Shown here one piece after another: positions 15,402-23,059 of a stretch of 64,000 nucleotides of DNA. The stretch is taken from assembly GCA_913009825.1 (NCBI GenBank), contig CAJVYQ010000017.1, positions 1-64,000 on the forward strand. The letters are read 5' to 3'. How positions within the stretch are numbered: the first letter of the stretch is position 1; each line of letters begins with the position of its first letter. The translations under genes and the position numbers were made by a program. The notes under the pieces are model-generated. The model worked only from the letters and a program-made list of their open reading frames with translations, had not been told where the DNA came from and did not search any database. This DNA is from an uncultured Deferribacteres bacterium (GTDB lineage: Bacteria > Zhuqueibacterota > JdFR-76 > DREG01).

Positions 15402-18400
15402 TTACTTCACAATTAAAATCCTGCCAATATGCTGGCCGATTCCGGGAGCTTCTACATGATAAACATAAATTCCATACGCCAAATCCATATTGTCCTTCGT
15501 CATCACATCCCATAACTCTGCCCCGTCATTCATAGAACTATCGTGCTCCAAACTTCGCACTAACGATCCATCGACGGTATAAATTCGAATGGTACATTTT
15601 TGCGGAAGATGGATAAACTGAATCACACGGGGGCCGCGACCGGAAGTGTACGGATTCCGCGGTTCCCAAACCGCAGTAACCACATAGGGATTTGGAACAA
15701 CCTTTATTCTATCTAAACTATTTTTTGCAACCTCCGGATCAATTTTCTGACCTTTTACTTTAAACCGGAACCTGGTATTTCCGGTAAACGGAAAATCGGC
15801 ATAGAGGCTCAGGGTATCGCCGGCGCCAAGATATCTGCCATATTCGTTGATAAAAGATGTATCTTCCACCGCATTGTTCAACAAACTAAACGTGATAATT
15901 GTCGAATCGTTAGCAAGCTTTTCAAAAAAGATAATCCGGTCTTTGGCCGAAAAATGACCCGCGGGGACAATACCCTTATTAATTTCCTTATTATCTTCAA
16001 TTACAGCAAAATGAACTTCTTCGTCTGTTTGTTTATCATAAATTTTATAATTTACATCCCGTGGCGGAATGGGAATCCGGGTACCGGTAGCCGCCAGAGG
16101 AACTCCCAATAATTCCGATTGATTTACATTCTCATCATAAAAAACAATTTCATATTGTCGCGGATACGATATCCCGGGAACAAATCCACCCAATTGAAAC
16201 ACATCATATTTTAAATTGTAGGCCGTTTCATAGTTGATATTTCTGCTCCACCGGATCCCATTGTATATATTTCTTTTCACATCATTCACCACGCCGCCAG
16301 GGGGATTGTAGATAAATATTTCTAAACCGTTCATTACTTTGGTGAGGGTTCTGGAGTTTCCGTCACGATCATCGTAAAGATTGGTAATCAGTTTTATCGA
16401 ATCCTGTTCGAGGACATATTTGTAGAATCTCACCGTGTCCAGGATTGTACTGCGGATTAAATTTTTCAGAACAAATCCCGTGGTTTCTGTTGGTAGTAAT
16501 TCATTTGCATCATCCGCATCCTTTTTGCCGTCATTGTCATTATCATAGCGATCCATGGACCGGTCTAAAAATTGAATTTCATATTCTTCTCCATCAACCA
16601 GCGAATCCGGTTCCAGAAATTTAACTGCAACTTTTCCACTGGTAAATCCGCGCCCGACCATTTCAGGTTTAATATCAAAACCGGGGGGCACATAACCCAA
16701 AGCCGGCGCCTGGGGAGTTACAGCCACAACATTTTCGCCTAATTGGATTTCACCGGATTGACTTACATTTACAAAAATAGTTGTTTCCGACGGACCGATG
16801 TTATTGTCAATATCCCCTTTATCGTAAGCCGTAACCGCATAATAATATCTTATTCCGTTCACTAAAGGAGTATCAACAAAAGTATGAACCAGGCCGGTTT
16901 CCGATCCCAAATTAAATTGAACCCCTGTGCCGAATGAATTCTCAAAGAAGCCAAAAATATCATCCACTTTATCATAAATTGCCAAAGGTTTTTTGAACCG
17001 CTCATAACCTAATCCGTCGGTAATTGTGCCGGCATCTTCAAATGTGTAGTGAGTAGCACGATAGACTTTGTATCCTTCAAAATCGTACTGTTTCAAAAAT
17101 CGATCAAAGCTCAATTCTGCTTCAGAATCCCAATACAAAGTTACTTTTTTATCGCCGGCAACAGCACGAAGTTTGGGTTTTTTGGGCGCAACTGCAAAAT
17201 TGTAGTTGGAGTTGTAAATTTTCTGAACAGTTTCTTTATTGCGTAAAATATCCATTTCATCCCAGCCATATAGCATAGCCACGGAAAAAAATTCTTTCTG
17301 ATTGGGCCTTAATGGAAAGTAACCGGACGAAAAAACATAATCAAAATCCGCTCTTTCCCGCGAACCGATATCAAAATAACCGGGTCTGGAAATTTCCCAC
17401 ATTTGCACATCATTGCTGTATGTCACATCACCGTATTCATAAAATTGAAAACTGGTTAAGCCAATTTGATCAGACTCATCCACATCAACCTGATCAATAT
17501 TGGGCTCACCCGGAAGGTCTCCTGAGCCGGGAGTCGGTTGACCGTCTCCTTCACCCGGATCACCGGTTCCCGGTTTACCGTCAAGACCAACATCATCAAA
17601 ATTGACATCCCAATCTCCGTCATTATCAATGCCGTCGTCCCGGCGCTCATCAATTAAAAGATTATCAAGCCCATTTCCGTTGAAATAATCTTTTGCCAAA
17701 TAATCCCGGTTATTATAAACCGGATCACGAATATATAAATAATATTCAGCGGAATCCTGCGTCATAGCGCCGTCGCTCTCATCAATCAATCCATTCAGAT
17801 TATCATCTACTCCATTTCGCGGGATTTCTTCCAAAGGAGCATTGGGAGAGAAATAATGTTTTATGCCATTTACCGTTATCGAAAATTGATCTGCCGGCAT
17901 CGTGGAAATTGTTCTGGGGTATTCATCGCTGTCATAATCGATCAAAACAATAGGATCTCCCACATCATAAAATTTTAAAAAATCATCCTTGGTAATCAAC
18001 TTGCCGCTTCCCCGACTTCCATCCCCGTCATTATCGATGCCGTCATAAGGATTACCGGGACTTTCTAAAAATGCAAACCCAACCCATGGCACCGGTGTGT
18101 AACCTCTGGTGCCGATATTGTCGAAATCATAATTTACCGCCAGGGCTTTCTCCCGATAGTAACGCGCCACATCATCATCCCAGTCTTGATTTTCTCCAAC
18201 CAACGCCCCGCTTGAAGCGCCGACATTTACGCCAAACAGAGTCTGATTTAAAAACAGATCACCAAAATTCCGAATTTCATAAAGCCAAAAAATACAGTCT
18301 TCAGCATCCGGATTTGCCCATTGCAAACCCCGCACCGCAAGCCGCAAACCTAAACCGCCGCGATCCGGTTCTGAACTGATGGGGACGGGGAGAGCAAGTC

Positions 18401-23059: not shown

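Follow-up and report, generated by a model that had tools for sequence, protein, structure and literature searches.

A three-gene unit encoding a TonB-dependent receptor, a barrel of the PorV/PorQ family and a 1206-residue secreted surface protein, here called BIG, probably forms a complex for glycan uptake that fulfils the role of SusC/SusD with no SusD present, in which BIG would be exported by type IX secretion (T9SS), anchored by the barrel and held over the receptor. This triad, found in the window (the whole stretch of DNA analysed, 64,000 nt), looks like an undescribed alternative to the SusC/SusD uptake machine. In the superphylum, SusC/SusD counts as the hallmark of glycan uptake and is what searches for polysaccharide loci look for. 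A first-pass annotation of the window had already proposed a dedicated uptake complex, and the core of that idea is supported by gene order, genomic context, trees and covariation; corrections concern the family of the receptor, the role of the barrel and the usual gene order.

The triad and its β-mannan locus

The features of the window are collected in Table 1. Transcription runs from the receptor through the barrel to BIG, all on the minus strand, with 12 nt between the barrel and BIG and approximately 14 nt between the receptor and the barrel if the latter starts at MNKYKF; an alternative barrel ATG further upstream would result in an overlap with the receptor stop codon. Positions and the spacing of 12-14 bases are as the first-pass annotation gave them. 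By context the region is a PUL, with two GH26 genes, GH5, GH130, an AGE epimerase, an SSF symporter, a LacI regulator and CBM9 all present in the window. The window holds a complete β-mannan locus containing the triad, and the ligand here is probably β-manno-oligosaccharides, as read from the neighbouring genes. The 338-aa protein gave no family match in this otherwise fully assigned locus.

Table 1. Triad genes and surrounding features of the window
Feature	Position	Strand	Basis
TonB-dependent receptor, 991 aa, non-SusC	20084..23059	(-)	Pfam, SusC model, AlphaFold2, fold matches
Private PorV/PorQ-family outer-membrane barrel, up to 349 aa	19035..20084	(-)	NF033709 201.5 bits; triad-only clade
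BIG, 1206-aa secreted surface protein	15402..19022	(-)	No Pfam family; AlphaFold2 model; PorZ top PDB match
Predicted C-terminal T9SS sorting domain of BIG, distinct subclass, residues 1102-1206	15405..15719	(-)	Cross-scored models
CBM9-type T9SS-secreted protein, conserved accessory upstream of the window's triad subfamily	23271..26213	(-)	PF06452 and Por_Secre_tail
PPIC/SurA-type periplasmic prolyl isomerase	12348..13973	(-)	PF13616, PF00639
338-aa secreted-looking protein between BIG and isomerase	13991..15007	(-)	Pfam: no match
Mannan catabolism: GH130, SSF symporter, GH26 with T9SS signal, DUF5060 protein with T9SS signal	2736..11930	(-)	
GH26, AGE-type epimerase and LacI regulator of the mannan locus	26885..30289	(-)	
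GH5-type hydrolase, edge of locus	30685..32523	(+)	PF00150

Recurrence and gene order

Complete triads were found at 192 of the 203 assessable BIG loci, i.e. those not cut by a contig end, and the remaining 11 were without one detected part; the parts were counted by unfiltered search, and long antisense ORFs overlap PorV in some loci. Among 80 named relatives, whose labels include Ignavibacteria, Calditrichota, Marinimicrobia, KSB1 and Rhodothermia, 56/58 assessable loci were complete, as were 96/105 assessable loci out of 112 in the window's own phylum (a sample that overlaps the first) and 40/40 loci in a held-out second phylum. BIG is encoded in 57/59 genomes of the window's phylum, SusD in 22/59 of them, and in the second phylum BIG is present in 63/148 genomes. 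The first-pass annotation had supposed that similar triads may be common in these phyla, which is supported, and had proposed a co-occurrence count, with random gene order of the three families in relatives as the finding that would speak against a dedicated complex; the counts given above, and gaps between the triad genes that are mostly short or overlapping in relatives, show the families travelling together.

The order described by the annotation is correct for the window, whereas the usual order elsewhere is receptor-BIG-barrel, and the arrangement receptor-barrel-BIG marks one subfamily, which has mannan-type neighbours in loci L091-L093. The closest relatives (L091-L094), with BIG proteins at 62-69% identity, have this arrangement in common and also contain a gene of the size of the CBM9-type neighbour. 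The downstream genes are alike in L091-L093, the first of them encoding a prolyl isomerase, and symporter-like and epimerase-like genes were recognized by eye in L093. The window's own 5.1 Mb genome carries at least five further triads, on contigs C9 (two), C29, C51 and C56, in the order receptor-BIG-barrel, together with a set of scattered genes on C1 and a truncated copy on C99, all of these counts being lower bounds. Tandem triads or tandem BIG genes, observed at L139, G057:C47 and G049:C504, suggest duplication of the whole unit.

The receptor is not of the SusC family

The receptor contains Plug (5e-10), TonB barrel (4e-30) and CarboxypepD_reg (3e-20) domains in Pfam searches. Its N-terminal domain, which the first-pass annotation had described as SusC-like, is a generic CarboxypepD_reg-type extension, and the SusC/RagA family model gave a score of 115.9 bits, below its cut-off of 368. 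The nearest solved folds to the AlphaFold2 model of the receptor (pLDDT 90.4) are receptors of the siderophore, heme and B12 types, among them the Bacteroides thetaiotaomicron B12 receptor complex (8bmx) and XusA-XusB (9gbc), and SusC structures appear from rank 29 on. No SusD was detected at the triad locus or on the window contig, in agreement with the annotation. Two SusD matches are present elsewhere in the genome, on C21 and C4, each adjoining its own receptor gene, which makes a remote SusD partner for the window receptor unlikely, and the search for such a partner, named in the annotation as a way in which a dedicated complex might be disproved, leaves that reading standing. Membership of the SusC/SusD family is ruled out by the SusC-model score and the absence of SusD at the locus. 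Separately, we noted an orphan receptor at L087:4740-7538 (G000:C45), 38-44% identical with that of the window and without an adjoining BIG or barrel.

A private clade of PorV/PorQ-family barrels

The assignment of the gene between the receptor and BIG to the PorV family is confirmed by the PorV/PorQ family model (NCBIfam NF033709), which the window barrel passes with 201.5 bits against a cut-off of 90. The protein is closer to PorQ (95 bits) than to PorV (approximately 61-66 bits), and is below the cut-offs of both equivalog models, 220 and 250 bits respectively. The annotation noted that a PorV-family barrel is normally a shared T9SS shuttle; the window barrel is not that shuttle. The best PorV match of the genome lies at C25 (227.6 bits), with SprA on C1 and PorU on C34, and in a maximum-likelihood tree 37 triad barrels, seven of them from the window genome, fall on one side of a branch with support of 96/89. 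The other side is occupied by 11 further PorV-family barrels of the genome, including the canonical PorV, several branches being long. Identity of the window barrel with the shared PorV is ruled out by the separate match at C25 and the triad-only clade. Because the canonical PorV is encoded elsewhere in the genome, the window barrel is more likely to be a standing PorQ-like anchor or private carrier than a shared shuttle. Type A clients are reported to share one PorV, and type B clients to have private PorP/SprF carriers (PMC12618676; PMC9143113), and private PorV-type barrels for a type-A-like class would therefore be new.

Other unusual relatives of these proteins were also observed. PorV-family barrels with fused long C-terminal extensions (629-1156 aa), which lie outside the triad clade, are encoded at L075, L078, L082 and L084, and some of them adjoin large T9SS-signal proteins. 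Giant PorU-like proteins (frames of 1615 and 1790 aa) are found at L085 (G000:C20:26000-38000) and at G000:C28:57482-62110, besides the true PorU, and the one on C20 is directly followed by a PorV-family barrel, forming a barrel-client pair without a receptor.

BIG and its C-terminal domain

BIG consists of an N-terminal half with calcium-type loops (residues ~30-590), an FN3/Ig part (~600-1090) and a C-terminal domain, or CTD (~1101-1206), preceded by a signal peptide that was identified by eye. No Pfam domain scored above its cut-off in BIG, and no carbohydrate-binding domain was recognized. The calcium-type repeats described in the first-pass annotation recur, with DNDGD loops in 120 of 127 BIG relatives (the set of triads left after removal of BIGs more than 85% identical), and a lipobox-like motif occurs in 5/127, none being visible in the window BIG. 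When the AlphaFold2 model of BIG (pLDDT 84.8) was compared with the PDB, PorZ was the top match and PorU was among the significant matches, with low TM-scores (about 0.1), and we take the PorZ match only as a hint. Apart from the FN3 domain, the sequence of BIG matched only the C-termini of PorU and PorZ, weakly, and its paralogues likewise score weakly against these C-termini.

The putative T9SS signal recognized in the annotation forms a subclass of its own. The window BIG gave no match with TIGR04183 or PF18962; of the paralogues, one exceeds the cut-off (25.0 against 23 bits) and others approach it. Judged by sequence, the CTD appears to be a divergent T9SS signal of a type-A-like kind, which in the window BIG escapes the standard models, with the consensus KVVPNPY ... 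LPAKCTIRIYT ... WDLLTKD ... AYGVYLYHVDAP ... GKLAVIK. Cross-scored models, each trained on half of the data, misassigned 0/82 domains (64 held-out BIG CTDs and 18 ordinary CTDs), a separation to be read with the fact that full-length BIGs are homologous throughout, so that mutual likeness of their CTDs is expected. The short BIGs of other triads also score with the BIG subclass. At CTD position 1201, 117 of the 127 sequences have a basic residue, lysine in 90 and arginine in 27, the window BIG having arginine; by distance from the C-terminus, this is the place of the near-invariant lysine of type A signals (compare PMC10994853).

Covariation between the three proteins

Partial correlation of pairwise distances across the 127 triads linked the N-terminal half of BIG with the receptor barrel (0.53; bootstrap 0.46-0.60) more closely than with its own Ig part (0.19) or its own CTD (-0.15), and the strongest partner of the CTD was the private barrel, at 0.32 (0.24-0.41). 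With equal column numbers the order of these correlations was unchanged. Within the receptor, whose outer and inner sides were assigned by hand from the strand order of the model, the BIG N-terminal half correlated with the extracellular loops (0.31) and the strand tops (0.28), and at 0.06 with the lower strand halves. Similarly, 128 of the 147 top residue pairs between the BIG N-terminal half and the receptor fall in the outer half of the latter, and no such skew was seen for PorV. In 40 held-out triads the link between the BIG N-terminal half and the receptor barrel was replicated (0.45), and the domain-level covariation of CTD and PorV, at 0.13, was not clearly replicated in this set.

Among the top residue pairs is CTD1201-PorV120. 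On a receptor-only tree, six branches carry a change at both of these positions where 0.39 would be expected (P about 1e-7). The held-out loci show the association again, with P about 4e-7, a value uncorrected for relatedness. PorV120 aligns with G116 of Flavobacterium johnsoniae PorV, adjoining F115, the backbone of which contacts the conserved type A lysine in the cryo-EM structure (PMC10994853), a PorV-CTD contact that varies among clients (PMC10994853). As CTD1201 occupies the place of this lysine and PorV120 lies beside F115, an unguided signal coincides with a known carrier-client contact. The top inter-protein pair by mutual information, CTD1107-PorV125, was rejected as proof, having only 0 to 2 same-branch changes and reflecting mostly clade structure; in the held-out loci, K or R at CTD1107 was never found together with R at PorV125. 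Ten of the top 30 CTD pairs lie in the two PorV loops known to bind CTDs, where 2.3 were expected, and this enrichment is strongest for the CTD; it is weak evidence, because the same loops are also enriched with other partners.

A proposed mechanism and its alternatives

In the mechanism that we propose, BIG would be exported by Sec and would then cross the type IX translocon (SprA, the gene for which is present in the genome) by means of its distinct type-A-like CTD, which would be captured by the private barrel encoded beside it. The barrel would stay bound as an anchor, as PorQ does for PorZ and PorV for PorU, and the N-terminal half of BIG is predicted to lie over the extracellular face of the receptor and to capture or gate the ligand, the import of which through the receptor would be driven by TonB. 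We give an even chance to the fullest form of this proposal, i.e. a non-SusC receptor and, beside it, a PorQ-like barrel that permanently holds its own surface lid, brought there by type IX secretion, the whole serving as a main importer of glycans throughout the window's phylum and in much of Bacteroidota, with SusD often absent, and involving the first private PorV-type carriers for type-A-like clients.

It is conceivable, although unlikely, that the barrel is a recycled carrier only, which collects BIG at the translocon and passes it to PorU, to be covalently anchored or released, and that the working complex consists of BIG and the receptor. PorV behaves as such a shuttle for type A clients, being recycled (PMC12618676, PMC5562754), PorU is encoded in the window genome, and the pair CTD1201-PorV120 fits the carrier contact seen at the translocon. 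However, one private barrel per BIG would then be superfluous, and the CTDs of the paralogues score against PorZ and PorU, which are proteins that keep their CTDs. We consider it distinctly improbable that the genes are merely co-regulated and have separate functions, with BIG as a surface-binding protein or adhesin of the locus and the receptor acting alone. Secreted binding proteins are indeed numerous in T9SS glycan loci, and a common ligand specificity could drive the covariation between the BIG N-terminal half and the receptor loops without contact; set against this are the near-universal strict adjacency of exactly receptor, barrel and BIG, the ordinary CTDs of the other secreted proteins of triad loci, which have no private barrel, and the closer tie of the BIG N-terminal half to the receptor barrel than to the rest of BIG.

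The anchoring of a surface protein by a FadL-type barrel has a precedent in BamG-BamH (PMC12611786), and prolyl isomerases recur near triads, so that BIG might also be viewed as serving the assembly or quality control of the receptor, on the lines of BamG-BamH, rather than the capture of substrate. This is very hard to credit, since each receptor has its own private BIG, in loci that are substrate-specific, and the covariation is with extracellular loops and not with the membrane part.

Comparison with known systems

The triad resembles SusC/SusD and RagA/RagB in pairing a TonB-dependent receptor with a surface partner, thought in those systems to cover the receptor, in polysaccharide loci. 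It differs in that its receptor is below the SusC model, its partner is not SusD, mostly lacks a lipobox and has a T9SS signal, and there is an additional barrel subunit. In the attachment complex of Porphyromonas gingivalis, the anchors of PorZ and PorU are PorQ and PorV, respectively, and both anchored proteins retain their CTDs (PMC5562754). The combination of a PorV/PorQ-family barrel with a T9SS-exported protein is the same, but PorQ-PorZ and PorV-PorU are single-copy secretion machinery, whereas triads occur as many paralogues, each with its own TonB-dependent receptor. Type B clients (SprB-SprF and PG1035-PorP) are likewise encoded side by side with a private outer-membrane barrel, PorP/SprF, which anchors the client; these pairs involve another barrel family and another CTD class, and have no TonB-dependent receptor. 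In BamG-BamH of the F. johnsoniae BAM complex, a FadL-type barrel anchors a surface protein beside a larger barrel, but this is a biogenesis machine and BamH is a lipoprotein. The complexes 8bmx and 9gbc also combine a non-SusC receptor with a surface partner, which differs in being a lipoprotein, without T9SS and without an extra barrel.

A published counterpart by annotation is tonB-hypA-hypB of Rhodothermus marinus, whose three genes, part of a glycan locus, match the triad in annotation and in order (PMC9530828). In the alginate locus figure of that paper the genes appear as tonB, a T9SS type A protein and a PorV/PorQ protein, without interpretation (PMC9530828); there they are hypothetical genes without a proposed function, and hypA is shorter, at 2,181 nt (PMC9530828). 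Within the open-access literature, preprints being outside the scope, we found no description of the triad beyond this figure legend.

If the triad is a counterpart of SusC/SusD, such loci have been overlooked in Calditrichota, Ignavibacteria, Marinimicrobia and Rhodothermia, and they could be searched for with BIG together with the triad barrel. The reported rule of one PorV for all type A T9SS clients would then also be broken, and protein secretion would be coupled directly to the uptake of nutrients. This reading makes specific predictions, namely the private barrel, the CTD subclass and the residue pair CTD1201-PorV120.

Genes neighbouring the triad in relatives

The genes immediately upstream of triads (n=43) include 12 for PPIC isomerases, six for CBM9 proteins and three for LacI regulators, as well as GH97 and GH2. 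Counting also approximately 5/37 downstream genes and the one in the window, PPIC/SurA-type prolyl isomerases are recurrent neighbours of the triad, and perhaps act as a periplasmic foldase devoted to the receptor or BIG. Of the genes immediately downstream (L091-L170, n=37), 25 encode proteins with ordinary T9SS signals and nine encode a CBM20 starch-binding domain. The triad accordingly accompanies mannan loci, probably starch loci and perhaps alginate loci, and the CBM20 and other T9SS-signal proteins encoded downstream are possible T9SS counterparts of the starch-binding lipoproteins SusE and SusF.
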